Assembly (NCBI GenBank): GCA_016213825.1
Contig: JACQZP010000031.1
Location: 1-64,000 of the forward strand
Source of the DNA: Acetobacterium woodii
GTDB lineage: Bacteria > Bacillota > Clostridia > Eubacteriales > Eubacteriaceae
Length of the DNA stretch: 64,000 nucleotides
Reading direction: 5' to 3'
The notes under the pieces are model-generated. The model was not told where the DNA came from. It saw only the letters and a list, made by a program, of their open reading frames with translations, and searched no databases. Below are positions 8,647-24,865 of the stretch, in pieces. Position 1 is the stretch's first letter, and each line of letters starts with the position of its first letter. The position numbers and the translations under genes were made by a program.

Positions 8647-8685
8647 TAAGGTCTTTACAGATAATTCAGATTGATCCAATCTCAG
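8643..8685 (+). repeat. 43-bp fragment matching the ChW/C39 gene
   Basis: By eye 37 of 43 bases match 11975-12017 inside the ChW/C39 gene, which codes the linker just before its peptidase domain. It starts at the stop of the C39 lipoprotein and is probably a relic of recombination between the two related genes. Confidence 0.6.
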
Positions 8686-8755
8686 ACGCCATGAATGACC
8701 CATCATTATATGTTGATGTTAGTTTGAACCGGTTACCTAAGGGGCAGGTTTTTAG
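8686..8755 (+). repeat. Two-hairpin intergenic element, copy B
   Basis: CATCA (8701-8705) pairs with TGATG (8714-8718) as first hairpin. AACC (8727-8730) to GGTT followed by TTTAG gives a weaker terminator. GCCATGAATGAC at 8688-8699 resembles the same block in copy A. Confidence 0.5.
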
Positions 8756-8982
8756 CTGTCCCAAATTAATAGTGTTCGTGGTTAGTCCAATATCAAATGG
8801 GTTTGATTATCGGATAACTACAAAGGCAAAGCGAAATTAGTTTTGAGATCTGCAACCAATTTAGGACGAAAAAAGCAGTATCAAGAACGTGTGTGTTTTT
8901 ATATTTTGATACTGTTTGACATTAACTGAAAGTTGAATTACAATCAGAATAACAAACAAACACGGAGGCAGGCACTGTTAAA
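8756..8982. other. Intergenic region before the CDGSH fusion gene
   Basis: No gene is supported here. The CDGSH gene's ribosome region is GGAGGCAGG (8963-8971). No strong promoter stands out. Confidence 0.4.
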
Positions 8983-10221
8983 ATGACGAATGAAAAAAAA
9001 GAATTCAAAATTAAAATAACCGAAAATGGGCCTTATATTGTTTCGGGAAATATTCCCTTGACGGAGAAAATAATTGTACCTAAAGGAAAATCATACGAGT
9101 TTAAAAATGGTCGTGAATTACCCCAGTCGGAGGAGTATGCTCTATGCCGCTGCGGGCAATCAAAAAATCCGCCATTTTGTGATGGCACGCATGCAAAAAT
9201 CGGTTTCGTCGGCACCGAGACGGCATCGAAAGATAGATATGAAGAACGGGCTGAATTGCGGGGGGGACCTGCAGTGGATCTTTTGGATGACCACCGCTGT
9301 GCTTCAGCTCGGTTCTGCCATCGGGAAATGGGTGATGCCTGGGAGCTGACAGAAGCGTCGGATAACGAAGAAAACAGAAATGAAGCGATTCAGGCTGCGA
9401 AAGAATGCCCTTCTGGTAGGATAACAGCTGTCATCAAAAAACGAGAAGTAATTGAGCCGCAACTGGAACCCGCCATCGAAATCGTTCAGGATCCTGAAAA
9501 AGAAGTCAGCGCCGGAATTTTTGTTAAAGGATATATTCCCATCGAATCGGCAGATGGTGAAATTTATGAGATTAGAAACCGAGTTGCCCTGTGTCGCTGT
9601 GGTCAATCTAAGAATAAGCCATTCTGTGATGCGAGACACGTTGAGACAAAATATTTGGATAGCAATTGTAAGATTGTGATAATCGTTGGTTCATTAAGGA
9701 AGGATTCTTTAAATCTTCAGTTGGCAAAAGCGGCGGAATCATATTTGAAAAATAAGGTTAATATTGAAATACTGGAATATAGTGAAGTTCCGCTTTTAAA
9801 TCAGGATTATGAATATCCAGCACCGGAAAAGGTTAAGGAAATAAGAGATAAAATTAAAAATGCGGATGGAATCTGGTTTTTTACACCAGAGTACAATCAT
9901 TTCTTGCCTGGGGTTTTAAAGAACTTAATTGATTGGCTTTCAAGACCCGTCAGCCCAACCGAAGGACAGGTTTTAACTGGCAAACCAGCTGCAATCAGCG
10001 GGATTTCACCAGGCATGTCCGGTACCGGGATTGCCCAAGATCATTTGGTTACGCTGTTAAGCTTTTTAAATATGGATATTATGAATCTGCCTCGCCTGAC
10101 CATTCCAAATGCTAAGCAACAGCTGAATCAAGATGAAAAACTTGAATTGACGACAAGTGCACCCTATTTAAAGAAAGAAGCGGATGCATTTATTGAGTTT
10201 ATTAAAAATAGAAAAAAATAA
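8983..10221 (+). CDS. CDGSH / Fer4_19-like / CDGSH / NADPH-dependent FMN reductase fusion
   Basis: This 412-residue protein joins four modules. CDGSH motif 1 is CRCGQSKNPPFCDGTH (residues 55-70). A divergent mono-cluster ferredoxin-like segment follows, with C106, C112 and C142 (the last in KECPSGR). CDGSH motif 2 is CRCGQSKNKPFCDARH (204-219), in which G is replaced by A and the next residue by R while the three Cys and one His ligands stay. Residues 229-410 are an NADPH-dependent FMN reductase domain (VIIVGSLRKDSLN; FFTPEYNHFLPGVLKNLIDW). The likely role is passing electrons between flavin and [2Fe-2S]/[4Fe-4S] centres; the partner is unknown. A relic of a related reductase C-terminus lies at 24381-24509. 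A small separate double-CDGSH protein is at 41303-41542. Confidence 0.85.
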   Translation: MTNEKKEFKIKITENGPYIVSGNIPLTEKIIVPKGKSYEFKNGRELPQSEEYALCRCGQSKNPPFCDGTHAKIGFVGTETASKDRYEERAELRGGPAVDLLDDHRCASARFCHREMGDAWELTEASDNEENRNEAIQAAKECPSGRITAVIKKREVIEPQLEPAIEIVQDPEKEVSAGIFVKGYIPIESADGEIYEIRNRVALCRCGQSKNKPFCDARHVETKYLDSNCKIVIIVGSLRKDSLNLQLAKAAESYLKNKVNIEILEYSEVPLLNQDYEYPAPEKVKEIRDKIKNADGIWFFTPEYNHFLPGVLKNLIDWLSRPVSPTEGQVLTGKPAAISGISPGMSGTGIAQDHLVTLLSFLNMDIMNLPRLTIPNAKQQLNQDEKLELTTSAPYLKKEADAFIEFIKNRKK

Positions 10222-10230
10222 ATTAAAAAG

Positions 10231-10295
10231 TGCCATAATTCATTCAATATGAATATTATCTAGAACCTGTTATGTAAAAGTAGCAGGTTTTTTTG
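10231..10295 (+). repeat. Two-hairpin intergenic element, copy C (terminator)
   Basis: ATTCAT (10238-10243) pairs with ATGAAT (10249-10254). AACCTGTTAT (10264-10273) pairs imperfectly with GTAGCAGGTT, followed by seven T. It closes the CDGSH fusion gene. Confidence 0.6.
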
Positions 10296-10410
10296 TTGTA
10301 TATAATGGAGTTACGACGTATAATCGAAATTAACATAGACCGTGTTCGGAAAAAATCGGACGATAAGTAGGAAATTCATCAAGAAAAACTAAAAGTTGTG
10401 AGGATCTAAA

Positions 10411-12555
10411 ATGAAGCATTTCTTCAAAAGAGAATTGGTAATACTGTTTACTTTATTAATGATTGGTGGTTTGGTACCCGCTGGGGTTTCCGCGGCCGCT
10501 GCAAGTCCAGGAGTGTCCTATCAGACCCAAATTGAAAACATCGGCTGGGAAGTCGACGCTGGCATTGGTCTAAGAAGCAATGGCGAGGCCAGCGGAACAT
10601 TTGGCCAGGGTCTGCGTTTAGAAGGAATCAAGATTAATCTGGATCAGCAGGGCTATGATCTTGGGGTCTCCTATCAGACCCATATCCAGAATATCGGTTG
10701 GGAAGCTGATACTGGCCGGGGCTGGAAAAGCGATGGTGTGATGAGCGGCACCCAGGGCGAATCCAAACGTCTGGAAGCAATCCAAATCAAGCTGACGGGC
10801 GCGGATGCCGATCAATTTGATATTTATTATCAAGTGCATGCCCAAAATATTGGCTGGATGGGTTGGGCGAAAAATGGCGAAAGTGCCGGGAGCTCCGGAT
10901 ATAGTTATCGTCTTGAAGCGATCAAAATTGTGGTGGTACCCAAAGATCAGGATCCACCGACGGTAACAACTACCCCGGCTTTTATAACCTACCCTGGTGT
11001 GTCGTATCAAACTCAAATTGAAAACATTGGTTGGGAAGTTGCTGCTGGTGTTGGATTACGAAGCAATGGCGAGGTCAGCGGGACATCAGGACAAAGTCTG
11101 CGGCTGGAAGGCATTAAAATTAATCCAGATACCCAGGGCTTTGATTTTGGAATTTCCTATCAAACCCACATTCAGGATATCGGTTGGGAAGCCGACACCG
11201 GCCGGGGCTGGAAAAGCGACGGTGTGATGAGCGGAACCCAGGGCGAATCCAAACGTCTGGAAGCAATCCAAATTAAGCTGACGGGCGTTGATGCCGATCA
11301 ATTTGATATCTATTATCAGGTTCATGCCCAGAACTTTGGCTGGATGGGCTGGGCGAAAAATGGCGAAAGTGCCGGTACTGCCGGATATGGCTATCGTCTT
11401 GAAGCGATCAGAATTATGCTTGTACCTAAAGGTCAAGGGGCGCCTTCCGCATCAGTGATCCCGGCTTTTTCAGATAAAAAAAATAGTGCCATTGAGGGGA
11501 ATTTATTTATAAGATCAACCGTCGCTGATTTTAATACTGCCGACGCCAGCTTTGACAATGTTGAAGTTTCAAATAACGGTGATGGCGCTATTGTGCTTAA
11601 ATCAGGTGTCCAAAGTGGTGTTTACACCTCTAATAGTTTAAGTACCAGTTCGTTTAACAAACTGGTGCTTTCCTGGAATAGTGATACGCCCGCAGGAACG
11701 ACGATTCAGGTTCAGGCCCGGGTAGCATTGACTGCCAATGGACAATGGTCCAATTGGCTGACGTGGGGGACCTGGGGAACATCAATAAAAAGCGGGTCTG
11801 GTGGAGGTCTGACAGATGACGCGGTGGCAAGCGTTGATGTGGATACCCTGGTGGTAAAGAGTGGCCAGACTGCCAATAAAATACAATATCGGGTTATCTT
11901 AAATTCGGATCAATCCGGCGTAACGCCGACGCTTCGGTTAGTCTCGGGAGCATTGCGAAATACGAGTCAGGGGATTAATAAGGTTTTTACAGATAATCCA
12001 GATTTGTCAAATCTCAGGGTTCTTGATGTACCGAAGCTATCTCAGATGATCAGAGATCCGGCCATCGCAGATTCGATTTGCAGTCCCACTAGTATTGCCA
12101 TGGTGTTAAATTATTATGGAACCCAACTAATACCCGAACAGGTCGCATGGGGTGTATACGATTATGATTATGAGGACTTTGGAAATTGGCCTTTCAATAC
12201 GGCTTATGCAGGAAGTCTTGGCTATCGTGCCTACGTCGATTATTCAACGATTGACGGCCTGAAACGAGAAATTGCCAATGGACATCCTGCCATCGCAGCG
12301 GTGGCCTATAAAAACAGTGCTAATGTCAGTGGCAATCTACCGGTGATCGACGGAGCCCCGATTGCATCAACCAACGGTCATCTGATTGTCGTTTGTGGTT
12401 TTACCAACGAAAATGGCATTGACTATATTATTATCAACGACCCGGCTGCTGCTAGTAATGCCGGCGTTAGAGTCAAGTATCGGCTTGATCAATTTCAAAA
12501 TGCCTGGGCGGAGTCCGGCAATATAACCTATATCATTCATCAAAATGAAAATTGA
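10411..12555 (+). CDS. Secreted protein with six ChW repeats and C39-like peptidase domain
   Basis: This 714-residue protein has an N-terminal signal peptide (cleavage probably after VSAAA, about residue 30). Six ChW repeats follow in two near-identical blocks of three (about 33-180 and 195-345), each unit of the form SYQTHIQNIGWE...SGT...GxSxRLEAIxI. ChW repeats are typical of Clostridia surface proteins and are thought to bind cell wall or other proteins. Residues about 355-530 form a beta-rich linker. About 540-714 is a C39-like peptidase (LDVPKLSQM, then SICSPTSIAMVLNYYG with the Cys, NGHLIVVCGF with the His, and IINDPAA). The short repeat form VSYQTHVQNVGWQDW also occurs in the alkaline phosphatase at 56457. 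Confidence 0.86.
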   Translation: MKHFFKRELVILFTLLMIGGLVPAGVSAAAASPGVSYQTQIENIGWEVDAGIGLRSNGEASGTFGQGLRLEGIKINLDQQGYDLGVSYQTHIQNIGWEADTGRGWKSDGVMSGTQGESKRLEAIQIKLTGADADQFDIYYQVHAQNIGWMGWAKNGESAGSSGYSYRLEAIKIVVVPKDQDPPTVTTTPAFITYPGVSYQTQIENIGWEVAAGVGLRSNGEVSGTSGQSLRLEGIKINPDTQGFDFGISYQTHIQDIGWEADTGRGWKSDGVMSGTQGESKRLEAIQIKLTGVDADQFDIYYQVHAQNFGWMGWAKNGESAGTAGYGYRLEAIRIMLVPKGQGAPSASVIPAFSDKKNSAIEGNLFIRSTVADFNTADASFDNVEVSNNGDGAIVLKSGVQSGVYTSNSLSTSSFNKLVLSWNSDTPAGTTIQVQARVALTANGQWSNWLTWGTWGTSIKSGSGGGLTDDAVASVDVDTLVVKSGQTANKIQYRVILNSDQSGVTPTLRLVSGALRNTSQGINKVFTDNPDLSNLRVLDVPKLSQMIRDPAIADSICSPTSIAMVLNYYGTQLIPEQVAWGVYDYDYEDFGNWPFNTAYAGSLGYRAYVDYSTIDGLKREIANGHPAIAAVAYKNSANVSGNLPVIDGAPIASTNGHLIVVCGFTNENGIDYIIINDPAAASNAGVRVKYRLDQFQNAWAESGNITYIIHQNEN
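10513..11435 (+). repeat. Tandem duplication of a three-ChW-repeat block inside the gene
   Basis: About 440 bases at 10513-10950 recur at 11002-11435 with only scattered differences, including long identical runs around the segment coding WKSDGVMSGTQGESKRLEAI. The blocks are far closer to each other than single ChW units within a block, so the duplication is recent and prone to recombination. Confidence 0.85.
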
Positions 12556-12569
12556 GAAGGTTGCAGAAG

Positions 12570-12655
12570 CTTCTTTATCGCCATCCGCAATGACGCATTG
12601 GTAATTAATACTAAAAAGAACCGGTTGCTTTACGATCGGTTCTTTTTATTGGCAA
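12570..12655 (+). repeat. Two-hairpin intergenic element, copy D (terminator)
   Basis: CTTCTTTATCGCCATCC followed by ATGACGCAT resembles copy A. AACCGGTTGC...GATCGGTTCTTTTTATT forms the terminator of the ChW/C39 gene. The first hairpin is poor in this copy. Confidence 0.5.
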
Positions 12656-12705
12656 GGACCTAAGCAATGCGATGGTATAAAAGCAGAATAAGAATGAATA
12701 AAAAC

Positions 12706-12740
12706 CAAACGCCTCCTCAGTCTTGAGGGGGCGTTTGATA
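12706..12740. terminator. Bidirectional terminator between converging genes
   Basis: AAACGCCTCCTCA and TTGAGGGGGCGTTT form a strong stem with a three-base loop between the plus-strand ChW/C39 gene and the minus-strand lipase-like gene. Confidence 0.75.
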
Positions 12741-12756
12741 TTACTTGAACGCTGTT

Positions 12757-14076
12757 TTAATTTTGGGCATTTACGTAGCTGTCAAAGATTCCCTTTGACT
12801 GGGCAATGGCTTGCATGTAGTTTTGTAAGTGATTAAGTGGATATTGAGTATAGCTCATTTTTACATTTCCACCAGCAGCCAACATTTTTTCGTAGGCGTT
12901 TTCGGTTACCGAGGCCGGGATCAATCCATCCTCGGATGAGGTCAGAAAGGTGACGGGCATTTGGGGAACCCAATCATCGGTATTGTTAGCAGCAATGTCT
13001 TGTGATACATCGCCATCTTTTGCGCTGGCCAGGAAAGCAGATGTAAACATGTTGTCTGTTGCTTTGGGGTAATTGGAAGCTAGGATGATCAGTGGGGTTG
13101 TGGGATTTTTAAAGTTCTTTTCAACACGGGCGTCATAGGGTTTGTTAAAAATAGTATCCATTGCCCCCCAATTATAAATTTGTTGATAGGCATAAACCGC
13201 TTTGGCACAAACCAGACTTCCACCCGGTCGGCCATCCATTATAACACCTCCTGGGGTTTCGAGAAAGTTATTCATGGCAGCATTCATGTTGTAGGGACCT
13301 TCCATAAATACTGCGGCGGTAACTGGATACTGGGGATAGTTGTTCTGAATTAATTCAGCAAGCGCCGAGACGGCCTGGCCTCCTTCTGAATAACCTGACA
13401 AAAAGAGTTGACCATTGGTGGACAGCTTTAATTGTTCCAATAAATGCTGGGTAGCTATTAAGATGTCCACACCATTGGCGGCTTCACTGTCGGCGTATAA
13501 ATATTCGCTGGGATATTTCAGGCAATTTGGCTGTCCGTTACCGACGTAGTCAGAAATGGCTACCACATATCCTTCGCTCGCAAAGGCCCCGGCTAAAGTA
13601 TTGGATTCCCCGGAAGATTTTTGGATGCTGACACTGGGAGCAGTGCCATTGGTCATGATCGTTGCGTGTTGATAAATAAGTAAAGGCATAGCAGCGGAAT
13701 CGGTTTTTTCGGGGATCAGAACGACTCCGGAACAGGGAATCTTTTCACCAGCATGATTAAGTGTAACGTATTCGATAATATAGGCATTCACTGGGTAGTC
13801 TGGTGAACCTAGCTGTGCCAGAGACCATTGGGCTGATTCCTTGGTGGTGCTTTTCCCTAATTTTTGAAGAAAACTGGTTGAGTCGGCGGTTGAGAAGGTC
13901 TGATAAAACTCATTAAACAAAAGGTCTCCACGGGTAGCAGTACTGACATCGTAGGTTGCTCTGGCCTCAATGGTTTTTAGTTCTTTACCAGAAATAGTAT
14001 GAAGTATAAAGACTAGGAAAGAAACGGCAATGAGCAACAAAAACAATTGAAAAAAAACCTTTTTCGTAGATTTCAT
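12757..14076 (-). CDS. Secreted or membrane-anchored alpha/beta hydrolase (secretory lipase-like)
   Basis: This 439-residue protein has one N-terminal hydrophobic segment (about 8-27) that acts as signal peptide or anchor. The rest is an alpha/beta hydrolase of the secretory-lipase/peptidase type: nucleophile elbow GYSEGGQA at about 229-236, the likely Asp in TSSEDGLIP and the His in YPLNHLQ near the C-terminus. Such enzymes cleave esters outside the cell; the substrate is not predictable. It is alone on its strand and divergent from the sigma-54 activator at 14328, so it is a possible co-target of that activator, but I saw no -24/-12 site before it. Confidence 0.75.
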   Translation of the reverse strand: MKSTKKVFFQLFLLLIAVSFLVFILHTISGKELKTIEARATYDVSTATRGDLLFNEFYQTFSTADSTSFLQKLGKSTTKESAQWSLAQLGSPDYPVNAYIIEYVTLNHAGEKIPCSGVVLIPEKTDSAAMPLLIYQHATIMTNGTAPSVSIQKSSGESNTLAGAFASEGYVVAISDYVGNGQPNCLKYPSEYLYADSEAANGVDILIATQHLLEQLKLSTNGQLFLSGYSEGGQAVSALAELIQNNYPQYPVTAAVFMEGPYNMNAAMNNFLETPGGVIMDGRPGGSLVCAKAVYAYQQIYNWGAMDTIFNKPYDARVEKNFKNPTTPLIILASNYPKATDNMFTSAFLASAKDGDVSQDIAANNTDDWVPQMPVTFLTSSEDGLIPASVTENAYEKMLAAGGNVKMSYTQYPLNHLQNYMQAIAQSKGIFDSYVNAQN

Positions 14077-14327
14077 AGTTTCCTCAGAGTGGCATAAATT
14101 GACCCCGAAATCCGTGGTCGAACCAATAATGTTATTCTACAGTAACTAAGCATAGGTTGCAATAAATTTTTCTTTAATGAATCGATCGTCAAGAAGAATT
14201 ATCTGGCAGAACAAACCCAAATAAATATTAGGCTGGTTCTATTTTTCATAGCTAAAATAATTTAACCATCTTTTAATAAATATGTTATGATATTGTTGAA
14301 AATCCATAAATCCAAGGAGGTGTTGCT

Positions 14328-16262
14328 ATGTACAATAACGGTATTGTGAACTATAAAAATTACAATAGTGTTGAAAAAAATCTGAAAAATGTACTGAATT
14401 TAGCAAATACCAGTCAAAATGCAAAAGCTGTTGAGGAAGAGATATATTATAATACCGCCAAAAATGTCGGGCGTAGCTTAAATGTAACGGATTATAACAG
14501 CTTATCGGAAAAGATCATCGAATTGGGAATTGGACAAATTGTCATTACCAATATGTCTGATGAAATGATCGTCTTTCGTCTCTATGACTGTTTTACCTGT
14601 AGTGAGATGGAGAATATTGGCAAACCGTTATGTTATTTTGAAGCCGGGATTTTAGCTGGTGCAGTCAGTACTATCAGCAAACAGGATATGGATGCGGTTG
14701 AGGTGAAGTGTAACGCATTGGGTGACGCATATTGCGAATTTGAAGTAACCAAAGCCATTAATGATAAAAAGAGCTTCAACGAAGATAGTGATTATGGAAA
14801 AACCGATATTAATATGCTTTACTTAACGATCAACTCATTGAAGTTAGCAAAAAGTAAAAACCAGATGCAATCTCAAAGCCAGCGTTCTTCCCAAGATAAT
14901 AAAAAATTGAATGATGCCCTTGAAAATGCCTTAGAAGCTGACAATTTCAATCAAAATATCATCGACAGCATCCCTAATTATCTGGCTGTCATTGACAGTG
15001 GGGGAATGGTTGTCCGGATCAATAAAAAATACCAGGAATTTTTGTCTTCAGCTTTCAAAAAAGACACGAATATCATTGCTCTGTCATGGGAGTCAAAATA
15101 TACCGAGGTGCTGGCCACCGGAGAGCCTGCCATTTGGCAACAGATGATTTCCGGTAAGGAACATATTATCTTTGAAAGTCCGATTTTAGAAGCACAGGCA
15201 GTATTAAGACAGGTAATCCCGGTGGAGTCTGATTTTATTAAATTACTTCTGGATAAAATATCAGATTTAGAAGAGCGAATTGACTCTAAAAACAAAGCTG
15301 GAGATCAACAGACGACCAAACTTTGTGACCCAAACATCATTGTCGACAGTCACGAAATGATTGAGCTAGTGAATTATATCAAGAAAGTATCAAAAACCGA
15401 TGCTTCTGTTTTAATGAGAGGGGAAAGTGGCACAGGCAAAACAATGTTTGCCGAAATAGTCCATCAGGAGAGCCCCAGAAGGCATAAACCATTTATTTAT
15501 ATTGATTGTACCACCATCCCGAAGAATTTCTTTGAAACCGAACTTTTTGGCTATGAACCCGGTGCTTTTACGGGGGCGAATAAGAATGGAAAAGTTGGAA
15601 AACTGGAAATGGCTCAGGGCGGGACCGTTTTTTTAGACGAAATCGCCGAGATTCCAATTGAAATACAGTCGAAGTTACTCCGCTTTCTACAGGAAAAAAA
15701 GTTTGAAAAAATGGGATCGGTTACGACTAAAAAAGTTGATGCCAGGGTCATCGCGGCAACCAGCCAGAACCTGGAAGAAATGATGCAGTCGGGTTTATTT
15801 AGAAAAGATCTCTACTATCGGCTTAATGTCATCAATGTGATGCTACCGCCACTTCGACACCGGCGTCAGGAAATTCCTGGACTCGTTGACAAAATACTCG
15901 ACAATGTCAGTAAAGAAACGGGAACAGCATTGAAGAAAATTGATGAAATCGGGATTCGGGAATTAATGAATTATAATTGGCCCGGCAATATCAGGGAATT
16001 AGAAAATTTGTTAAAAAGATTGACGTTTTTAGTTGATGAAAAAGTCATTTCAAATGATGCGATCTTAAAAGAACTAAATATCGCAAAAACACAAAATGGT
16101 TTCAATTTTGTGTTATCTAAAAATGAGATAAGCGAAAATGAAAAAGATCTCATCGTCAGAGTTATCAAAAATTGTAACTACAACAAGTCAAATGCCGCCG
16201 AGAAACTTGGTATCACCCGGCAAACGCTCTATAATAAAATTAAAAAGTATAACATAACTTAA
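14328..16262 (+). CDS. Sigma-54-dependent activator with V4R sensor domain (DmpR/MopR-like)
   Basis: This 644-residue enhancer-binding protein has a V4R sensor domain at about 30-140. C102, E125, C128 and C136 are spaced 23-3-8, the spacing of the structural zinc site in phenol sensors of the DmpR/MopR group (from memory of that family). A PAS-like domain lies at about 210-300 (DSIPNYLAVIDSGGMVVRIN). The AAA+ domain at about 340-565 has Walker A GESGTGKT and the sigma-54 contact loop GAFTGA. A Fis-type helix-turn-helix ends the protein (NAAEKLGITRQTLYNKIKK). AAGGAGG precedes the ATG. It lies directly upstream of a sigma-54 promoter and an acetyl-CoA synthase gene, its most likely target. The ligand is unknown; a small aromatic is a reasonable guess from the family. 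Confidence 0.9.
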   Translation: MYNNGIVNYKNYNSVEKNLKNVLNLANTSQNAKAVEEEIYYNTAKNVGRSLNVTDYNSLSEKIIELGIGQIVITNMSDEMIVFRLYDCFTCSEMENIGKPLCYFEAGILAGAVSTISKQDMDAVEVKCNALGDAYCEFEVTKAINDKKSFNEDSDYGKTDINMLYLTINSLKLAKSKNQMQSQSQRSSQDNKKLNDALENALEADNFNQNIIDSIPNYLAVIDSGGMVVRINKKYQEFLSSAFKKDTNIIALSWESKYTEVLATGEPAIWQQMISGKEHIIFESPILEAQAVLRQVIPVESDFIKLLLDKISDLEERIDSKNKAGDQQTTKLCDPNIIVDSHEMIELVNYIKKVSKTDASVLMRGESGTGKTMFAEIVHQESPRRHKPFIYIDCTTIPKNFFETELFGYEPGAFTGANKNGKVGKLEMAQGGTVFLDEIAEIPIEIQSKLLRFLQEKKFEKMGSVTTKKVDARVIAATSQNLEEMMQSGLFRKDLYYRLNVINVMLPPLRHRRQEIPGLVDKILDNVSKETGTALKKIDEIGIRELMNYNWPGNIRELENLLKRLTFLVDEKVISNDAILKELNIAKTQNGFNFVLSKNEISENEKDLIVRVIKNCNYNKSNAAEKLGITRQTLYNKIKKYNIT

Positions 16263-16286
16263 TTATTTCCCTTTTGGCCGTCTATT

Positions 16287-16346
16287 TGTGTCTAATTGTG
16301 TCAAAAAAGTGTAAATACTTTTTTGACAGTGTAAAAATATTAGACA
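16287..16346 (+). promoter_or_regulatory. Nested inverted repeats, candidate enhancer for the sigma-54 activator
   Basis: TGTCAAAAAAGT (16299-16310) and ACTTTTTTGACA (16317-16328) are perfect complements. Outside them TGTCTAAT (16289-16296) and ATTAGACA (16339-16346) also pair. The block lies 62-121 bases before the -24 element, a usual enhancer distance. It could also be an RNA hairpin at the end of the activator transcript. Confidence 0.6.
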
Positions 16347-16370
16347 GTGCAACGAACGGCACAACTTTGA

Positions 16371-16409
16371 AATCCGTCTAAATAGCGAGTAGACGGATTT
16401 TATTTTTTT
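16371..16409 (+). terminator. Intrinsic terminator of the activator gene
   Basis: AATCCGTCTA (16371-16380) and TAGACGGATT (16390-16399) pair perfectly, followed by TTATTTTTTT. The T tract runs straight into the -24 element of the next promoter. Confidence 0.8.
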
Positions 16410-16423
16410 GGCATAAAACTTGC
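16408..16423 (+). promoter_or_regulatory. Sigma-54 (-24/-12) promoter of the acetyl-CoA synthase gene
   Basis: TTGGCATAAAACTTGC has GG and GC exactly 10 bases apart as in the sigma-54 consensus TTGGCAC-N5-TTGC. It lies 51 bases before the start codon and just downstream of a gene for a sigma-54 activator. Confidence 0.85.
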
Positions 16424-16473
16424 TATATCTTAATGTTAAATAAAATTTCGTTGAAAAGGAAGAGTGATAAAGT

Positions 16474-18609
16474 ATGAGTTTGACAGATTTAATTTACGCT
16501 GGTTCAAATGCAGTTGCAGGTTTAACCGAAGGAGCTGTTAATGACGCCATTGCCAAATATGGTGAGGGGCATTCCGTCGGATACCCGGATACGGCTTATT
16601 TTTTACCGATCATTTATGCAGCAACAGGGGTTAAGATTAAAACATTAGGAGATTTGCCAGCAGCAGTCGGCATTCTAAAAAGTTTAATTACCAATAAGGA
16701 AGATTTGGGCGAAGCTTTAAATGCCGGACTGGCCACCGCCGTCGGAGCCGAAATTATTGAAGCGATCCGCTATTTAGATGGCGATCCCTATGCCAATGAT
16801 TCTGGCATTGGCTTTGTCGCTGATCCGATTATTCGTTCATTGGGCGTACCATTGGTAACTGGCGATATTCCCGGGATTGCGGTTCTTTTAGGAGAGTCAT
16901 CCGATCCGGCTGCTTTGGCTGCGATTGTCAAAGATTATCAGGAAAAAGGCTTACTGACCTTTATGGTTGGTAATATCATTGAGCAGGCTTTAGAAGCCGG
17001 TGTGAAAATGGGACTGGAATACCGGGTCATTCCGTTAGGCCATGAAGTCACCTCGGTTATTCATGTTGTCTCTGTAGCGATTCGGGCGGCTCTGATCTTC
17101 GGTGGGATCGAACCCGGTAAATTACCTGAATTCCTGACTTATACCAAAGAACGGGTACCGGCTTTTGTTAATACCTTCGGGGAATTAAATGAAGTCATTG
17201 TTTCGGTTGGCGCTGGTGCGATTGCGCTGGGCTTCCCGGTTATTGCTGACGTTCCAGTACCAGAAGTACCCGGTGCGTTAATGACTCAGGCTGATCATGC
17301 CAAAACAGTTGAATTCTCATTAGAAGCCAGAGAAATTAAAATTAAAGTTACTAAAATCGATGTGCCCGTTTCGGTGGCATCAGCATTTGAAGGCGAACGG
17401 GTTCGTAAAGACACCATGTTTGCTGAATTTGGCGGTAATAAAACCGAGTGTTGGGAATTAGTGACAACCGGTGATCCCGCAGAAATGGAAGATCACAAAA
17501 TTACCCTGATCGGTCCAGATATCGATGATGCCCAGTTTGCCGGTAGTGATGTCGTCCGTTTACCACTGGGAATCGTCGTGACAGTTGGCGGCAAGGCGAT
17601 GCAAAAAGATTTCGAAACCGTTCTCGAACGCCGCATCCACTACTTTACTAATTACATCGACGGGGCCATGCATGTGGGGCAACGAAACATTGCCTGGATC
17701 CGCTTGACCAAAGAAGCCTTTGAAAAAGGGTTCCGGTTAAAACACATTGGTGAAGTGCTATACGCAAAAATGCGATCAGACTTTGAAAAGGTTGTTGATA
17801 AATGCGAAATCACTATTTACACCAATGCCGAAGATGTTAAACGTCTGGGCGAAGAAATGGTTAAACCGATTTATGCTGAACGTGATGCCCGCATGAATGC
17901 CTTAACTGATGCCAGCGTCGACGAATTTTATACTTGTTTATTATGTCAGTCATTTGCACCAAGTCATGTTTGCGTGGTCACACCAGAACGTTTAGGCTTG
18001 TGTGGTGCTGTATCATGGCTGGATGCCAAAGCCACCAAAGAACTGGACCCACTGGGACCAAATCAGCCGATTGTTAAAGGTGAAGCCATTGACGAACGTC
18101 TGGGCATCTGGGCTTCTGTTAATGAAGTGGTCAATGCTGCATCACAAGGTGCCGTTGAAAAAGTAACCCTATATTCCATTTTGGAAGATCCGATGACTTC
18201 CTGTGGATGCTTTGAGTGTATCTGTGGAATTATGCCAGAAGCAAATGGCGTCATCATTGTTAATCGGGAATTCAGCGAAACTTCCCCGGTCGGGATGACC
18301 TTTGGCGAGCTGGCGTCAATGACCGGTGGTGGCGTTCAAACCCCAGGCTTTATGGGTCATGGCCGTTTCTTAATTGGTTCTAAAAAATTCATGTCAGCTG
18401 AGGGTGGTTTAACGCGAATCGTCTGGATGCCAAAAGAATTGAAAGATGATGTGGCTGAACGTTTAAACAAAGCCGTATTCGAAATGACTGGCATTGAGAA
18501 CTTCGCCGATATGGTCTGCGACGAAAGTATTGCCACTGACTCCGAAGCGGTATTGGAATTCCTGGAATCAAAAGGACATCCCGCATTGGATATGGACCAA
18601 ATAATGTAA
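16474..18609 (+). CDS. acsB: CO dehydrogenase/acetyl-CoA synthase, acetyl-CoA synthase subunit
   Basis: This 711-residue enzyme makes acetyl-CoA from CO, a corrinoid-bound methyl group and CoA, the last step of the Wood-Ljungdahl pathway. The A-cluster ligands are all present: C488, C491, C500 and C510 bind the [4Fe-4S] cube, and C577-G578-C579 holds the distal nickel. The spacing equals that of the Moorella enzyme (506/509/518/528 and 595/597). Length is close to the usual 729. The N-terminal third is the CODH-contact domain. No CODH, corrinoid protein or methyltransferase of the main cluster is adjacent, so this is a stand-alone copy, probably additional to one in the core cluster elsewhere. 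It is controlled by its own sigma-54 promoter. Confidence 0.95.
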   Translation: MSLTDLIYAGSNAVAGLTEGAVNDAIAKYGEGHSVGYPDTAYFLPIIYAATGVKIKTLGDLPAAVGILKSLITNKEDLGEALNAGLATAVGAEIIEAIRYLDGDPYANDSGIGFVADPIIRSLGVPLVTGDIPGIAVLLGESSDPAALAAIVKDYQEKGLLTFMVGNIIEQALEAGVKMGLEYRVIPLGHEVTSVIHVVSVAIRAALIFGGIEPGKLPEFLTYTKERVPAFVNTFGELNEVIVSVGAGAIALGFPVIADVPVPEVPGALMTQADHAKTVEFSLEAREIKIKVTKIDVPVSVASAFEGERVRKDTMFAEFGGNKTECWELVTTGDPAEMEDHKITLIGPDIDDAQFAGSDVVRLPLGIVVTVGGKAMQKDFETVLERRIHYFTNYIDGAMHVGQRNIAWIRLTKEAFEKGFRLKHIGEVLYAKMRSDFEKVVDKCEITIYTNAEDVKRLGEEMVKPIYAERDARMNALTDASVDEFYTCLLCQSFAPSHVCVVTPERLGLCGAVSWLDAKATKELDPLGPNQPIVKGEAIDERLGIWASVNEVVNAASQGAVEKVTLYSILEDPMTSCGCFECICGIMPEANGVIIVNREFSETSPVGMTFGELASMTGGGVQTPGFMGHGRFLIGSKKFMSAEGGLTRIVWMPKELKDDVAERLNKAVFEMTGIENFADMVCDESIATDSEAVLEFLESKGHPALDMDQIM

Positions 18610-18658
18610 TGAATTTTCAATTTTATTGGAAATATTAAAACTAAATACAGAACCTAAA

Positions 18659-18709
18659 CCTGATCGGATCAGGCTTTTAAAAGTCAGCTAAAAAATAGCT
18701 GACTTTTTT
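18659..18709 (+). terminator. Two consecutive terminators after acsB
   Basis: CCTGATC-GGATCAGG followed by CTTTT is the first. AAGTCAGCTA (18681-18690) and TAGCTGACTT (18696-18705) followed by TTTT is a stronger second one. Confidence 0.8.
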
Positions 18710-18845
18710 GAGTGGCACAGAAAAAGATGAAGTTCAGGTTGGATTCGGAGAAAACAATTGCTGATATTCTAACTTTCTTCACGCCAATAAATGCATTAAT
18801 GTGATATAATTTTTACATTAAATATTGTTGGAAGGGAATGAAACA

Positions 18846-20252
18846 ATGAAAAGAACTTTTGCGCTGATTTTTGCAGTGTGCATACTGTCGATCTCGCTTT
18901 CTGGTTGTACTGGAAAACCTGCTGCTGCAACAACCCAAACTGATAATTGGCAAACCGTCTCGGATGCCTATGTTTACTGTCTGCCCCTTGTCTTGGTGAA
19001 TGAAACCATGGTAGCGATGACCAATACCGTTGACCCCAGCAATACCCGGGCTCCGATCAATCAACTGATTCACGCCAAAGGCCTGGCGACAGCCGCATCA
19101 AAAGATATCGTCACCCCCAATGTCGATACCGTCTATTCCCAGGCTTTTTTGGATCTCAATGAAACGGCGATGGTTTATGTCAAACCCAAAACGGATCGTT
19201 TCTGTTCAGTCGAAGTCATGGATGCGTATACTAATGCGGTGTCCATTCTCGGATCAGGCGGCGATACTCAGGATCAGCAAACGTATCTGTTTACTGGCCC
19301 CAATTACAAGGGGGCCGTACCTGACACGATGAAACAGGTTTCCCTACCCACTAACCTCGCCTGGATACTAATCCGGGTTGTCTGCAACGGGGACGCCGAT
19401 CTGGACAATGTCTATGCCATTCAGAATCAGATGCAGTTGGTTCCATTAGATGCCTACCTCTCTGGTGAACCCTATACCCCGCCAACCGGCACCTATAATC
19501 CGGAAAACGATTTTGTACCGATCACTCATGTCGATGCGATGACCCCTCAGGAATTTTTTGACACGGCTAATCAGCTGATGGTCAATAATCCGCCAACAGC
19601 AGCGGATGCTCCGCTGATGAAAGCCTTGAGCAGTATCAACGTTGGCCCGGGAGCTACATTTGACGCCGCTGTTCTGGGAGACAATGGAGCGGACCAATGG
19701 CAAACCATGATCAGTAATCGCTCCAGCGATTTGGCTGCTGACTGCACACCATTTTCCGTATCGTTGGGCAGCTGGAGTTACTTCGGGGAACCGATTGCTG
19801 AGTTTGGTACCGAATACGAATTCCGCGCCTTGATCGCAATCAATGGCATTGCTGTAAATCCCGCCTCGGTGGCGATTTACCCAAAAGCATATAAGGACAG
19901 CGATGGTGAAACCCTAAATGGTAGCAATGCCTACACCATTCACTTTGATAAAGATGCTCTGCCGCCGACCCAGGGAAATGGATTCTGGTCGATCACCGCT
20001 TATAACAGCGATAATTTTCTGATTGATAATCCCTTGAATCGTTATTGCATCAATGACCGCAGCGGATTTACTTTGAATGAAGACGGCTCACTTGATATTC
20101 TGGTTCAGTCCAATGCGCCGGATCCATCCAAACAGAGCAACTGGCTTCCGGTGTCAGCCGATGATTTCCATTTGTATCTGCGGATTTATCTGCCTCAGGA
20201 AGCGGTTCTCAATGGACAGTGGTCTGCTCCTGTTATTAAAAAAGTGGTTTGA
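18846..20252 (+). CDS. DUF1254/DUF1214 lipoprotein
   Basis: This 468-residue protein starts MKRTFALIFAVCILSISLSG with a lipobox ending at the Cys of SGC, so it should be lipid-anchored on the outer face of the membrane. The mature protein has the DUF1254 domain (about 45-190: VYCLPLVLVNETMVAMTN; ATPNVDT-like NVDTVYSQAF) and the DUF1214 domain (about 310-450: ALPPTQGNGFWSITAYN; DILVQSNAP). Such pairs are often annotated as valosin-like secreted proteins of unknown function. The ATG at 18846, behind GGAAGGGAA, is chosen over a TTG at 18825. It stands alone after the acsB terminators. Confidence 0.8.
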   Translation: MKRTFALIFAVCILSISLSGCTGKPAAATTQTDNWQTVSDAYVYCLPLVLVNETMVAMTNTVDPSNTRAPINQLIHAKGLATAASKDIVTPNVDTVYSQAFLDLNETAMVYVKPKTDRFCSVEVMDAYTNAVSILGSGGDTQDQQTYLFTGPNYKGAVPDTMKQVSLPTNLAWILIRVVCNGDADLDNVYAIQNQMQLVPLDAYLSGEPYTPPTGTYNPENDFVPITHVDAMTPQEFFDTANQLMVNNPPTAADAPLMKALSSINVGPGATFDAAVLGDNGADQWQTMISNRSSDLAADCTPFSVSLGSWSYFGEPIAEFGTEYEFRALIAINGIAVNPASVAIYPKAYKDSDGETLNGSNAYTIHFDKDALPPTQGNGFWSITAYNSDNFLIDNPLNRYCINDRSGFTLNEDGSLDILVQSNAPDPSKQSNWLPVSADDFHLYLRIYLPQEAVLNGQWSAPVIKKVV

Positions 20253-20314
20253 TCGGATAAAAAAGGTGATCGGTTAAGTCGATTTATTTATTATACGAAT
20301 GAGAGGTGTTTTTA

Positions 20315-21781
20315 ATGGAAAAAAATGGAACAATGATGCAGTATTTTGAATGGTTTTTACCAGATGACGGCAAACATTGGCAACACTTAAAAGAAGATGC
20401 CCAGCATTTGAAAGAAATCGGAATTAGCTTGGTTTGGATGCCTCCCGCCACAAAAGCAACGGGCACCAATGATGCCGGTTATGGTGTTTACGACTTGTAT
20501 GATTTAGGTGAATTTGATCAAAAGGGGGCCGTGCGGACAAAATATGGAACCAAAGCAGAATATCTGGCCGCGATTAAAGCCTTGCAGGATCAGGGCATTT
20601 TAGCAATTGCTGATATTGTCTTAAATCATAAAGCGGGAGCCGATGAAACCGAACGGTTTCCGGTTTATGAAGTTGATCCCAATAATCGTCAGAAAAAAGT
20701 TTCCGATGCCTATGATATTGAAGGCTGGACAAAATTCACCTTTCCTGGGAGACAAGGTAAATACTCAGCCTTTCAATGGAATTGGACACATTTTTCAGGA
20801 ACGGATTTTAATCAGGAAAATGGCAAAAAAGCAATTTATATGATTAAAGGAATGGCTAAAGGCTGGGCGGACAATGATGAAGTCGATGTTGAATTTGGCA
20901 ATTATGATTATTTGATGTATGCCGACGTGGATTATGAACACCCAGATGTCAAAGAAGAGATAAAACGTTGGAGTGAATGGTTTATCAATGAGACCGGCGT
21001 TGATGGTTTTCGTTTGGATGCGGTCAAACATATTGAAGGCGAATTTATCGATGAGTTTATCAAAAATATCCGTGCAAAAAAAGGGGATGATTTTTTTGCG
21101 GTCGGAGAATATTGGAAGAAAAATGATGCAACACTAGAAAATTATATCGTGGAGACCGAATGCAATGTGGAGTTATTCGATGTTGCTCTGCATATGAATT
21201 TTTCAAAGGCCAGCAAATCTGGAAATAGCTTCGATATGAGTAAAATATTTCGAAATACATTGATGGAGAAAAATCCCACCAAAGCGGTAACCTTTGTAGA
21301 TAATCATGATTCGCAACCATCACAAGCATTGGAATCATGGGTTGATGACTGGTTTAAGCCATTAGCGTATGGGATGATCTTATTGCGTGAAAATGGCCTG
21401 CCTTGTGTTTTTTATGGCGACTATTATGGGATCGTCGGCGAAAAACCGATTCACGGTAAACAGGATTTAATCGATCAATTATTAGCATTGCGGATCAACC
21501 AGGCCTATGGCAAACAAAACGATTATTTGGACCATCCCAATTGTATTGGCTGGACTCGTGAAGGTGACGAAAAACACCCTGGGGGAATCGCCGTTTTGTT
21601 AACAAACAGCGATGCCGGTTATAAAGATATGTATCTCGGAAAGCAGCATGCGGGAAAAGATTATGTCGATCATCTAGGCAATCGTGACGAAACAGTAACC
21701 ATTAATGCCGATGGGTGGGGTACGTTTGTATGTGCGTCTGGTTCGATTTCGGTCTGGGCAGAACCCTTGACTAAGGAATAA
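20315..21781 (+). CDS. Cytoplasmic alpha-amylase (GH13)
   Basis: This 488-residue enzyme hydrolyses alpha-1,4-glucans. It has no signal peptide, so it acts on internal glycogen-like polymer or imported maltodextrin. GH13 landmarks are visible: DIVLNHKAGAD (region I), GFRLDAVKHI with the Asp nucleophile (II), FAVGEYW with the acid/base Glu (III) and FVDNHDSQP with the stabilising Asp (IV). The C-terminal beta domain follows from about 400. Length and the opening GTMMQYFEWFLPDDGKHW match the Bacillus-type amylase S / maltohexaose-forming subfamily. The ATG at 20315, behind GAGAGGTG, is the start. Confidence 0.92.
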   Translation: MEKNGTMMQYFEWFLPDDGKHWQHLKEDAQHLKEIGISLVWMPPATKATGTNDAGYGVYDLYDLGEFDQKGAVRTKYGTKAEYLAAIKALQDQGILAIADIVLNHKAGADETERFPVYEVDPNNRQKKVSDAYDIEGWTKFTFPGRQGKYSAFQWNWTHFSGTDFNQENGKKAIYMIKGMAKGWADNDEVDVEFGNYDYLMYADVDYEHPDVKEEIKRWSEWFINETGVDGFRLDAVKHIEGEFIDEFIKNIRAKKGDDFFAVGEYWKKNDATLENYIVETECNVELFDVALHMNFSKASKSGNSFDMSKIFRNTLMEKNPTKAVTFVDNHDSQPSQALESWVDDWFKPLAYGMILLRENGLPCVFYGDYYGIVGEKPIHGKQDLIDQLLALRINQAYGKQNDYLDHPNCIGWTREGDEKHPGGIAVLLTNSDAGYKDMYLGKQHAGKDYVDHLGNRDETVTINADGWGTFVCASGSISVWAEPLTKE

Positions 21782-21845
21782 TGTGCCGGATAAGATGATG
21801 AAAAATAATCAAAGTGAACTGGCTAAAAACAATAATTGAATTATA

Positions 21846-21884
21846 AAAAAAGGGACAACCCCAAAATGGTTGTCCCTTTTTAAA
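21846..21884. terminator. Strong bidirectional terminator
   Basis: AAAAAGGGACAACC and GGTTGTCCCTTTTT pair perfectly with a seven-base loop after the amylase gene. Confidence 0.85.
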
Positions 21885-21960
21885 CGAGTTGAACAAATAA
21901 ATAAACACAAATTTCAAAAAATAAGGTAAACTATTCCTAAGATGGGGGTGTAAAAAACTG

Positions 21961-23349
21961 ATGGTAAATAATGATTTTGGAACAAATAATAAAATATTCA
22001 TTGAAAATGAAGATACGGCGAATCAATATGCTGCTAAATGTTTGACAATTGTTGCTGCGATTGTTGGCATTGTCTGGATTTTGAATTTTATCAATTTTTT
22101 TATTATTTCGGACACGCTGATGAACATCGCAATGCCCATAAGCATTACGTTATTTCTATTGCCATCGTTGATGATTAAAATGATTAGCGGCCAAAAGTGG
22201 TACCTGAAATATTTGATTATGGCATGTACCATCTTGGGAATGACCAGTCTTTCGACAATGATGACTTATCATACGGTCCTTGCTTGGATCTGTCCGTTAT
22301 TGATTTCATGCCACTATTATTCGAAAAAATTTACGGCATGGACTTTGGCGGGAAGTGTTGTTTTTATGACCATTGCTATTTTTGTCGGACTTTATATTGG
22401 TTTATGGGACTCGAATATGATGGCTGAAATGGATGGGGTAGAAGAGCGGGTGATTACGGGAAGTATTCTGATCAGAACATTTAAGTTCTATTATTTACCG
22501 AGAGTATTTACGCTAATAGCAGTAGCACCAATTTGTGTTACCTTAATGGATCGCACTCGGGAGCTGCTGAATAAACAGAAAAAAGATAATGAGGAAAAAG
22601 AACGCATTTCTGCTGAACTGAATGTGGCCACAGAGATCCAAACATCGATGCTGCCCAGCATCTTTCCGGCCTTCACGGACAGAGAAGAATTTGATATTTA
22701 TGCAACAATGCAACCGGCGAAAGAGGTTGGTGGTGATTTCTACGATTTCTTCACCATTGATGATGACCATTTAGCAGTCGTTATTGCGGATGTGTCAGGT
22801 AAGGGGGTTCCGGCGGCGTTATTTATGGTGGTTGCAAAAACGCTGATTAAAAATCATACTCAGGCTGGCCTTGCGCCGGTAGAAGTTTTTACATTAGTGA
22901 ATGCGCAGCTTTGTGAAAATAACGACGTGGGTATGTTTGTCACGGCTTTTATGGGTGTGTTTGAAATTTCGACGCATCAGTTTACTTGTGTTAATGCGGG
23001 ACATAATCCGCCATTGCTGAAAAGATCAGCTGGCGGCTTTGAATATTTAAAGTTGCACACCGGCTTTGTACTTGGCGGAATGGAAGAAATTAAATATCAA
23101 CAGCTGGAAATGCAGCTGGCAAATGACGATGAATTGTATCTCTATACCGATGGCGTGACTGAAGCAACTAATGCTAATGATGAATTATATGGCGAGGACA
23201 GATTGTTTTCGGTACTTAACCGCAATGCCGAGCTAAAGCCGGAGGCGTTGCTGTCGATTATAAAAAAAGATATTGACAACTTTGTTAATGGAGCGCCGCA
23301 ATTTGATGATATTACAATGGTTGCCTTTAAAATTGGAAACATCGATTAA
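21961..23349 (+). CDS. Membrane SpoIIE-type PP2C serine phosphatase
   Basis: This 462-residue protein has about five or six membrane segments in residues 20-190, a short coiled linker (RELLNKQKKDNEEKERISAEL) and a SpoIIE/RsbU-type phosphatase domain at about 240-460. The metal-binding motifs are seen in AKEVGGDFYDFF, VIADVSGKGVPAALFM, YTDGVTEA and QFDDITMVAF. These phosphatases usually dephosphorylate anti-anti-sigma factors and so switch stress or developmental sigma factors. No STAS or anti-sigma gene is adjacent, so the partner is not known. A GGGGGTG ribosome site precedes the ATG. Confidence 0.88.
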   Translation: MVNNDFGTNNKIFIENEDTANQYAAKCLTIVAAIVGIVWILNFINFFIISDTLMNIAMPISITLFLLPSLMIKMISGQKWYLKYLIMACTILGMTSLSTMMTYHTVLAWICPLLISCHYYSKKFTAWTLAGSVVFMTIAIFVGLYIGLWDSNMMAEMDGVEERVITGSILIRTFKFYYLPRVFTLIAVAPICVTLMDRTRELLNKQKKDNEEKERISAELNVATEIQTSMLPSIFPAFTDREEFDIYATMQPAKEVGGDFYDFFTIDDDHLAVVIADVSGKGVPAALFMVVAKTLIKNHTQAGLAPVEVFTLVNAQLCENNDVGMFVTAFMGVFEISTHQFTCVNAGHNPPLLKRSAGGFEYLKLHTGFVLGGMEEIKYQQLEMQLANDDELYLYTDGVTEATNANDELYGEDRLFSVLNRNAELKPEALLSIIKKDIDNFVNGAPQFDDITMVAFKIGNID

Positions 23350-23382
23350 CAGATTATTATTTTAATTAATATCACTATTATC

Positions 23383-23421
23383 AATCAGTACAGTCTCGTT
23401 AAGTAGATTGTACCGATTTTT
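23383..23421 (+). terminator. Intrinsic terminator
   Basis: CAGTACAGTCT pairs with AGATTGTACCG (two mismatches) and is followed by seven T. It ends the phosphatase gene and faces the minus-strand gene ending at 23435. Confidence 0.7.
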
Positions 23422-23434
23422 TTGATTGCAGACT

Positions 23435-24271
23435 TTAGTGAAACAACTGGAATTTTATTATTTCCATAATATCTGTTATTTTTTTTAATTTTACAGCATT
23501 AATTAAATCGTCGGTTCCGTCAAATTGTGAGACGAAATCAAAAATATCATTCATAATGATTCCCAAAATATCATCTTCGTTCAGATTTTGATCTGCCTGC
23601 AAGTCAAGATAGCTTTGATAGTAAATATCTTTTAATCCGACAGTCACATATTTGTCGTGCATGAACAAAATGAAATGGCCATCAAAGAATAGCGATGATA
23701 AGTCAGTAGCGATATCTCCTGTCGCGGTTGTTCGCTCGATGACTTTAAAAATCATTTCAGCCACAACATTGATCATGGTTGAGACAATTGGCCGATCGCA
23801 TTTCAAAGATCGGGAGCAGAAGGTAGTGACATCGTTTTTTATTTGTTCAAGAACATCCCGTTTGGTTATATCCTGCTTTTTCTGGTATTCAATGTAAGGT
23901 TCATAACTGAGATCCCAGATTCGTCGAGAAGGATCCAGATTGGTTTGTTCCAACAATAAAATGCAGCGCCAGTCATAAAATCTGACCGTGAGCTTTGGGG
24001 TGTTCTCAGCAGCCGATTGCTCGGATGTTTTACAAACGTCAGTAGTTTCGGACTGACTGGGCAGCTCAGAAACACTGATGGGTTCATTTGACGAAATAAG
24101 CTGAATAATACCAGAATCATCAATGCATCGAATATCCTCATGGACGGTTGCAGAAGGATCATTCATTTCTGAAATTTCTTCTTTTAACAGAGCATAAGCA
24201 TTTTCATAATTATCCGCATCAACTTCAAAGAGAAAGGTTCGTATCTCAACGACGTTAAGTTTAAAACTCAT
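23435..24271 (-). CDS. Uncharacterised protein with DpnD/PcfM-like N-terminus
   Basis: This 278-residue soluble, acidic protein was not confidently recognised. Residues 1-60 (LNVVEIRTFLFEVDADNYEN, then AYALLKEEI) resemble the small DpnD/PcfM module seen in plasmid and phage proteins. The rest appears helical, with two similar stretches: KKQDITKRDVLEQIKNDVTT at about 133 and DQNLNEDDILGIIMNDIFDF at about 232, suggesting an internal duplication. No membrane segment, signal peptide or metal motif is seen. It stands alone. A conserved hypothetical protein is the safest call. Confidence 0.6.
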   Translation of the reverse strand: MSFKLNVVEIRTFLFEVDADNYENAYALLKEEISEMNDPSATVHEDIRCIDDSGIIQLISSNEPISVSELPSQSETTDVCKTSEQSAAENTPKLTVRFYDWRCILLLEQTNLDPSRRIWDLSYEPYIEYQKKQDITKRDVLEQIKNDVTTFCSRSLKCDRPIVSTMINVVAEMIFKVIERTTATGDIATDLSSLFFDGHFILFMHDKYVTVGLKDIYYQSYLDLQADQNLNEDDILGIIMNDIFDFVSQFDGTDDLINAVKLKKITDIMEIIKFQLFH

Positions 24272-24380
24272 TTTGATTCTCCGAGCTATTTCGGGTGGCC
24301 AACCGCTTAATTGTTAAGATATTAAATAGGTTTCTAAATATTAATAACCGTTATTGAATCGTTTAATCATTCTTAAACAA

Positions 24381-24509
24381 TTTGAAGATGAATATTATGA
24401 ATGTTTCTCGGCTTAGCACAACAAGTGTGCCTGATTTAAAGAAAGAAGCAGAGGGATTCATTGAATTTATCAAAACAGAAAAAATAATTTACAAGCGACT
24501 AAATTAAGT
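24381..24509 (+). pseudogene. Relic of an NADPH-dependent FMN reductase C-terminus
   Basis: Reading in frame gives MNIMNVSRLSTTSVPDLKKE, then AEGFIEFIKTEK and a stop. This matches the end of the CDGSH fusion protein at 10221 (MDIMNLPRL; TTSAPYLKKEADAFIEFIKN), with about 15 residues deleted in the middle. Only this C-terminal stub survives, just before the glutaredoxin promoter. Confidence 0.7.
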
Positions 24510-24524
24510 TTTTCAAAAAAATTG

Positions 24525-24859: not shown

Positions 24860-24865
24860 AAATAA

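Follow-up and report, generated by a model that had tools for sequence, protein, structure and literature searches.

The regulators of carbon monoxide (CO) metabolism named in the literature covered here, as far as the available text of those sources goes, are CooA, RcoM and CorQR; a V4R/NtrC family is not among them. CooA and RcoM use heme, while the CorQR system of the archaeon Thermococcus onnurineus is reported to be CO-responsive, has a sensor domain of the 4-vinyl-reductase (V4R) type tied to carbon monoxide dehydrogenase (CODH) genes, and has no heme domain reported in the part of the source available (PMC6557876). Here, a V4R-containing sigma-54 activator encoded directly upstream of a stand-alone acetyl-CoA synthase (ACS) gene, acsB, is described from a stretch of 64,000 nucleotides (the window), which forms positions 1 to 64,000 of contig JACQZP010000031.1 in the 3.94-Mb Acetobacterium assembly GCA_016213825.1 (genome G000 below). 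Judged from sequence, the activator probably belongs to a family dedicated to anaerobic CO metabolism, in which CO would trigger sigma-54-dependent transcription of the next operon and in which an Acetobacterium duplicate would drive an ACS of a second type.

The activator resembles CooA and RcoM in its proposed CO-dependent activation of CODH genes, and differs from them in having V4R and sigma-54 parts. CorQR is a two-protein system with a LysR-type DNA-binding part, whereas here V4R, AAA+ and Fis-type helix-turn-helix (HTH) domains are united in one protein, a distinction drawn from the available published description (PMC6557876). Two RocR-like AAA+ activators of Calderihabitans maritimus that rise with CO also have a cysteine motif in the sensor (HX2CX2CX5C); they lie beside kor genes or as orphans, V4R goes unmentioned in the text available, and they too are set apart by description (PMC7306483). 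According to the available text of a 2026 survey, CooA, RcoM or CorQR lies beside CODH/hydrogenase loci in 99 genomes and none of them does in 80, Neomoorella among the latter, and further undiscovered regulators are allowed for (PMC13077300). A genomic-context study of the same year counts regulators near CODH, and V4R, sigma and CooA do not appear in its main text (PMC13056359). Among the open-licence literature matches listed, no report of a CODH-linked V4R/NtrC family was met, nor anything joining "acsB2" with Acetobacterium or "V4R" with CO and CODH; mention elsewhere is possible.

The activator and its relatives at CODH operons

The activator gene (14328-16262) and the acsB gene behind it (16474-18609) are both intact and both on the forward strand. 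The 644-aa activator consists of V4R, PAS-like, AAA+ and Fis HTH domains; Pfam families V4R (aa 81-141, nucleotides 14568-14750, 73.5 bits), Sigma54_activat (337-504), AAA_lid_14 and HTH_8 (604-641) were found over their cut-offs, and the ortholog in A. woodii (G018) gave a weak PAS_4 match (E 0.005). The AAA+ domain carries a GESGTGK Walker A motif and a GAFTGA loop, which together with the Fis HTH place the protein with activators of the NtrC/NifA type. At motif level the setting agrees with this assignment, as the target gene has a predicted -24/-12 promoter with upstream sites and rpoN is present in the genome.

A paralog of the activator, 67-68% identical, was identified in G000, G014 and G017, in each case preceding a 4Fe-4S protein gene (cooF) and a monofunctional CODH gene (cooS) with a -24/-12 promoter of its own. 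The CODH so linked in G000 scored 728 bits against the TIGR01702 cut-off of 478. CooS of this type occurs at 3 of the 30 CODH loci compared from the genus, at 97-100% identity and in exactly these three genomes, the others being at most 42% identical. The paralog locus of G000 has a perfect palindrome, TTGACAGTGTCAA; those of G014 and G017 are without one.

Beyond the genus, the same arrangement recurs. A contig scan with the sensor domain, using two short peptide patterns that reach close relatives only, returned 10 loci: seven of the genus and those of Alkaliphilus transvaalensis, Thermohalobacter berrensis and a Clostridiaceae metagenome-assembled genome, in which the activator is accompanied by a -24/-12 promoter, cooF, cooS and a cooC-like gene. 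Genome samples were also searched at class level (391 genomes) and phylum level (398 genomes). The former gave eight matches at 1e-20, namely three of the genus, G269 (apparently the Alkaliphilus already counted) and four with likeness limited to the V4R sensor; the latter gave 11, among them G000 itself. In three of the phylum-level matches (G666, G476, G807) the activator is followed by cooF-cooS-cooC. In another five (G568, G815, G621, G669, G534) it is followed by CODH genes, with cooC called in four of the five and a membrane open reading frame (ORF) after cooF in all five; where scanned, in three of them, the ORF was assigned to Proton_antipo_M. This group is marked as Moorella-like by the ACS of G568, an almost exact match to PDB 1oao, a Moorella structure. 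The two matches left, G464 and G512, belong with the V4R proteins without a sigma-54 part (G019-G024, G464, G512 and a second match in G669), none of which lies beside CODH; the four of these that were scanned comprised three V4R-SpoIIE proteins and one of V4R alone.

Each of the 11 sigma-54-type relatives found beyond the genus has a CODH operon immediately downstream; TIGR01702 confirmed the CooS in 10 cases and Pfam in the remaining one. Across the family (n = 23), 14 activators precede cooS and nine precede acsB, a genetic link to CODH/ACS throughout. Because its relatives stand before CODH genes, the activator most likely answers to CO and not to aromatic compounds. In the activator tree the 12 Acetobacterium activators group together with a support of 0.997.

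The predicted operator and its conservation in Acetobacterium

Between the two genes of the window lie, in order, a cluster of predicted activator sites (16289-16346), a hairpin with a T-run that is the likely terminator of the activator gene (16368-16402, fold -15.5 kcal/mol), and the -24/-12 sigma-54 promoter TTGGCATAAAACTTGC (16408-16423), all read on the forward strand. The cluster, made up of TGTCTAA, TGTCAA, TGTAAA, the palindrome TTGACAGTGTAAA (16323-16335) and TTAGACA, is conserved both in the orthologs and in the CODH-linked relatives. A second hairpin lies 3' of the ACS gene (18674-18712, forward strand) and is a likely terminator by its predicted fold, so that the gene is probably monocistronic. 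TTGGCATAAAACTTGC is the sole match to TTGGCAYN5WTGC in the 64 kb. As 19 of 100 shuffled sequences also held a match (mean 0.21), this lone occurrence could be due to chance, yet it is kept in all nine orthologous intergenic regions.

The strict form TTGGCAY-N5-WTGC was found in 23 of 23 activator-target intergenic regions (nine ACS, 14 CODH). The same regions hold 98 TGTMAA/TTKACA half-sites, where 200 shuffles averaged 9.25 and never exceeded 19, and 13 palindromes, against 0.005 in shuffles. In five whole genomes, four with the activator and one without, TTGACANTGTMAA occurs at 14 distinct places. Five of these are activator loci, each with at least four half-sites and a -24/-12 at most 90 bp away; the remaining nine have two or three half-sites and no -24/-12 within 250 bp. 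Since only the palindromes at activator loci come with a promoter and a half-site cluster, the regulator looks dedicated to its neighbour, and a wide regulon was rejected on these counts. Isolated palindromes are to be expected by chance alone, since the reversed pattern, used as a control, was met 0-3 times per genome; the string TTGGCAYAAAAMTTGC, with 19 matches in 11 of the 19 genomes of the genus, is too widespread to be diagnostic by itself.

An operator common to this family and the ordinary Acetobacterium cooS genes was likewise rejected: in the 12 loci examined (of 17), some 1.4 kb of upstream sequence is free of a -24/-12, and half-sites are scattered there at 3-6 per locus. Neither a -24/-12 nor a palindrome was found upstream of the core acsB genes in G000, G010 and G018, and one -24/-12 match sits inside acsA of G018. 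Control by CooA or Rex was rejected for the two site forms searched, as neither TGTC-N8-GACA (CooA-type) nor TTGT-N9/10-ACAA (Rex-like) occurs in the 23 regions.

ACS and V4R proteins were searched for in 19 genomes of the genus, G000 and 18 others, named Acetobacterium among them. The activator-ACS pair is present in nine (G000, G002, G004, G006, G010, G014, G016, G017 and G018). The eight other ACS-linked activators are 79.6-96.6% identical to that of the window and the ACS proteins 93-99%; both the -24/-12 and the block of half-sites are conserved when the nine intergenic regions are aligned. A first-pass annotation of the window had placed a -24/-12 promoter before the ACS gene and proposed dedicated control of an extra ACS; the retention of the promoter at all nine loci, and the joint presence there of activator, predicted operator, promoter and ACS, support both points at the level of sequence. 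It had also noted that no CODH or corrinoid gene adjoins the pair, and none was found among the ORFs at 8000-26000 of the window; genes for a corrinoid protein and a methyltransferase do lie downstream at two of the nine orthologous loci, those of G002 and G016.

The neighbours of the pair are common to G000 and G010, partly common to G002 and G016, and otherwise different. Downstream of the stand-alone ACS in G002 (L036 749-3904) and G016 (L039 29-3124) are genes for a CobW-like GTPase, a protein of 159-161 aa, an MtgC-type corrinoid protein and a URO-D-type methyltransferase (families scanned in G002). In the window, a DUF1254/DUF1214 protein is encoded 3' of the ACS gene (18825-20252); it is found in the same place in G010 and is absent from the other seven loci. 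Small CdhC-like matches were also seen in two genomes, G002 and G012, and G004 gave a weak one.

Two types of acetyl-CoA synthase

The 711-aa ACS contains the three Pfam domains of AcsB (CODH_A_N, CdhC and ACS_CODH_B_C), all over cut-off, and scores 1060.8 bits against a cut-off of 800 for NCBIfam NF040764. Cysteines 488, 491, 500, 510, 577 and 579, which we take to be the A-cluster ligands, are all present, in keeping with the full A-cluster given in the first-pass annotation. That annotation had also suggested looking for a second acsB in the core cluster, and in G000 two were found, acsB1 and acsB2. The stand-alone ACS is 99.3% identical to acsB2 over aa 1-300 and 86.4% over aa 301-711; with acsB1 the corresponding values are 52.0% and 92.7%, so that the first-pass wording, "a different ACS", fits its first 300 residues when set against acsB1. 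DNA identity to acsB2 falls abruptly near codon 300. In comparison with the core cluster (L044 7946-13240), the break lies between the part encoding aa 1-300 (16474-17373) and the rest of the gene.

Between ACS proteins of type A and type B, 52 fixed differences were counted, every one within residues 6-297. On the sequences compared, the genus has two ACS types whose N-terminal domains are held separate, while the catalytic part is swapped among three acsB copies. With N-terminal domains kept apart and catalytic parts exchanged, trees of the two parts disagree: the stand-alone ACS genes come out as a single clade when the whole protein (0.846) or the C-terminal part (0.971) is used, and not with the N-terminal part. 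A duplicate from G013 was omitted from the second tree, a partial G009 copy from all of them, and a partial core type-A copy of G006 from the half-trees and the fixed-difference count. The N-terminal domain of ACS is, by established structure, the part that docks to CODH, and monomeric ACS is known from Carboxydothermus. All 17 genomes typed have a type-B N-terminal domain. G014, G016, G017 and G018 have no core type-B gene and carry type B solely behind the V4R activator, the stand-alone ACS of A. woodii (G018), encoded at 3,854,108-3,856,243 on the minus strand, being its only type-B copy.

The core clusters of G000 and A. woodii share a further feature. A very His-rich protein of about 205 aa, possibly nickel-binding, is encoded between acsB1 and the acsB2 position (L044 10305-10934; L045 11937-12551) and is retained in A. 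woodii despite the absence of acsB2 there. The A. woodii locus L045 has acsA, cooC2 and acsB1 at the starts given in the available text of a published account, 1242813, 1244738 and 1245585 (PMC6925170). Extra ACS genes have been reported in relatives: A. wieringae is credited with an "additional beta subunit" (PMC10134865), and ES strains with a copy of acsB inside the cluster or close to it (PMC10625859). These duplicated acsB genes resemble the present case in that an additional ACS gene is reported; unlike here, the available text of the two accounts gives no dedicated activator, operator or N-terminal domain type for a separate copy.

The V4R sensor and its candidate signals

Eight residues of the sensor region (C88, T90, C91, C102, E105, E125, C128 and C136) are invariant in the 23 aligned activators. 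As the first-pass annotation had pointed out, C102-E125-C128-C136 are spaced as in phenol sensors, the 23/3/8 spacing being that of the MopR sequence; the CxxC of C88 and C91 is additional to this set and is not in the MopR sequence compared. An AlphaFold2 model of the sensor, built from 11 of the 23 sensor sequences, has a mean predicted local distance difference test score of 67, with core blocks at about 80-90, and the predicted fold matches the V4R-type folds of YslB, MJ1460, DmpR, PoxR, MopR and TRAPP Bet3. Among V4R structures, a sequence profile of the sensor reaches MJ1460 only (E 0.003). No XylR_N domain was detected in any of the 15 family members scanned (of 23), the window activator included, with the scan extending for one of the 15 to its best 25 families; L037, scanned at 1e-5 only, lies outside this set. 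The sensor sequence likewise gave no match to the phenol-sensor structures MopR, PoxR and DmpR/CapR, which were matched at E 2e-31 or better by a positive control, the XylR_N-V4R protein L099 of the same genus. Compared with DmpR, MopR and PoxR, the activator thus shares the V4R fold, the C-E-C-C set at 23/3/8, the AAA+ domain and the Fis HTH, and differs in its extra CxxC, the lack of XylR_N, the lack of a sequence match to their structures, and its target genes.

L099 (6103-8001, in G004) is a XylR_N-V4R-PucR-type regulator beside oxidoreductase-like genes and, of the V4R proteins encountered in the genus, the only one that truly resembles an aromatic sensor. Short ORFs of about 96-196 aa with V4R and no sigma-54 part occur in 12 of the 19 genomes (e.g., G000:C10:46228-46407). 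The G002 activator (L036 6537-8096) is shortened in frame to 517 aa, about 127 residues being missing between V4R and AAA+.

For the inducing condition, the first-pass annotation had offered methoxylated aromatics or CO. In the former case the activator would be a phenol or aromatic sensor of the DmpR/MopR type, as its general layout (V4R, AAA+, Fis HTH), ligand spacing and predicted fold might suggest, together with the corrinoid protein and methyltransferase gene downstream at two of the nine loci. This is very improbable given the location of the relatives at CODH operons, and aromatic sensing was rejected because XylR_N, in the 15 members scanned, and any phenol-sensor sequence match are missing, the latter in contrast to L099. 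The label "DmpR-like" accordingly survives for the layout and fails for the XylR_N domain; similarly, CO is favoured as the inducing condition by the 14 of 14 activators not before ACS that precede cooS, and methoxylated aromatics are disfavoured. It is rather unlikely that the domain senses, in place of CO itself, some correlate of CO metabolism (redox state, nickel or a different metal, for instance), although the six conserved ligand-type residues (C88, C91, C102, E125, C128, C136) would suit such a switch, the targets are nickel enzymes, and CODH expression in Parageobacillus has been tied to redox via Rex in the available text of a 2026 study (PMC13077300). Set against it are the absence of a Rex-like site from the 23 regions and the available report on CorQR, the sole V4R precedent met at CODH loci, as CO-responsive (PMC6557876).

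The ACS gene might also be a mere spare copy that raises dosage, its control and N-terminal domain having no special meaning. A catalytic part 92.7% identical to that of core acsB1, and the evident exchange between acsB copies, would fit. That type B is present in every genome typed, that the stand-alone locus is its only site in the four genomes with no type-B gene in the core cluster, and that a dedicated activator and promoter are conserved make this distinctly unlikely.

CO as the inducer follows from the target set and the analogy with CorQR, and is put forward as the probable case. From the architecture, its conservation, the motifs, the cooF-cooS-linked paralog and the distinct N-terminal domain, all of them read from sequence, we infer operator binding, induction and use of free CO along the following lines. 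The cysteine-rich V4R domain would register CO, directly or via a CO-dependent signal, and the activator would bind the TGTMAA/TTKACA half-site cluster, with TTKACA-N-TGTMAA as its palindrome, some 60-120 bp ahead of the -24/-12 and drive sigma-54 transcription of the following operon. In carriers outside Acetobacterium the target would be a CODH operon, either cooF-cooS-cooC or one that combines CODH with a membrane subunit of the proton-antiporter type, while in Acetobacterium the activator would have been duplicated and one copy paired with the second-type ACS. In the presence of CO this ACS would be produced with no accompanying CODH, and it would form acetyl-CoA either from free CO or as a supplement to the CODH/ACS complex; induction of an ACS without a CODH would make sense where CO is external.

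Several observations weigh against this proposal of a CO-responsive family. The pair is missing from 10 of the 19 Acetobacterium genomes, and in the genome searches made it was found solely in that genus, so that its link to CO rests on the relatives. The ACS-linked activators form a clade at low support only (0.191). The loop of the paralogs reads SCFTGA in G000 and GCFTGA in G014 and G017 instead of GAFTGA, and these copies may therefore be weak; in the G002 activator, the loss of about 127 residues leaves V4R almost abutting AAA+. Finally, A. woodii, which has the pair, fails to grow on CO alone according to the available text of one account (PMC11208171); it may still encounter CO as a co-substrate. 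A bolder extension of the proposed CO response, possible though doubtful, is that the family forms a further class of bacterial CO sensor, a heme-free V4R domain whose CxxC and C-E-C-C metal site would bind CO directly and gate a sigma-54 activator, both for CODH operons of Bacillota, including the Moorella-like ones, which have no listed CO regulator, and for a CODH-independent Acetobacterium ACS that would carbonylate methyl groups with free CO.

The V4R activator family is a concrete and testable candidate for CO sensing in acetogens, with a predicted operator and promoter. For A. woodii, a genetically tractable acetogen, it predicts an ACS inducible by CO and, for use in gas fermentation, an inducible promoter. 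On the sequences compared, two types of ACS, distinguished by their N-terminal domain, are retained within the genus Acetobacterium.

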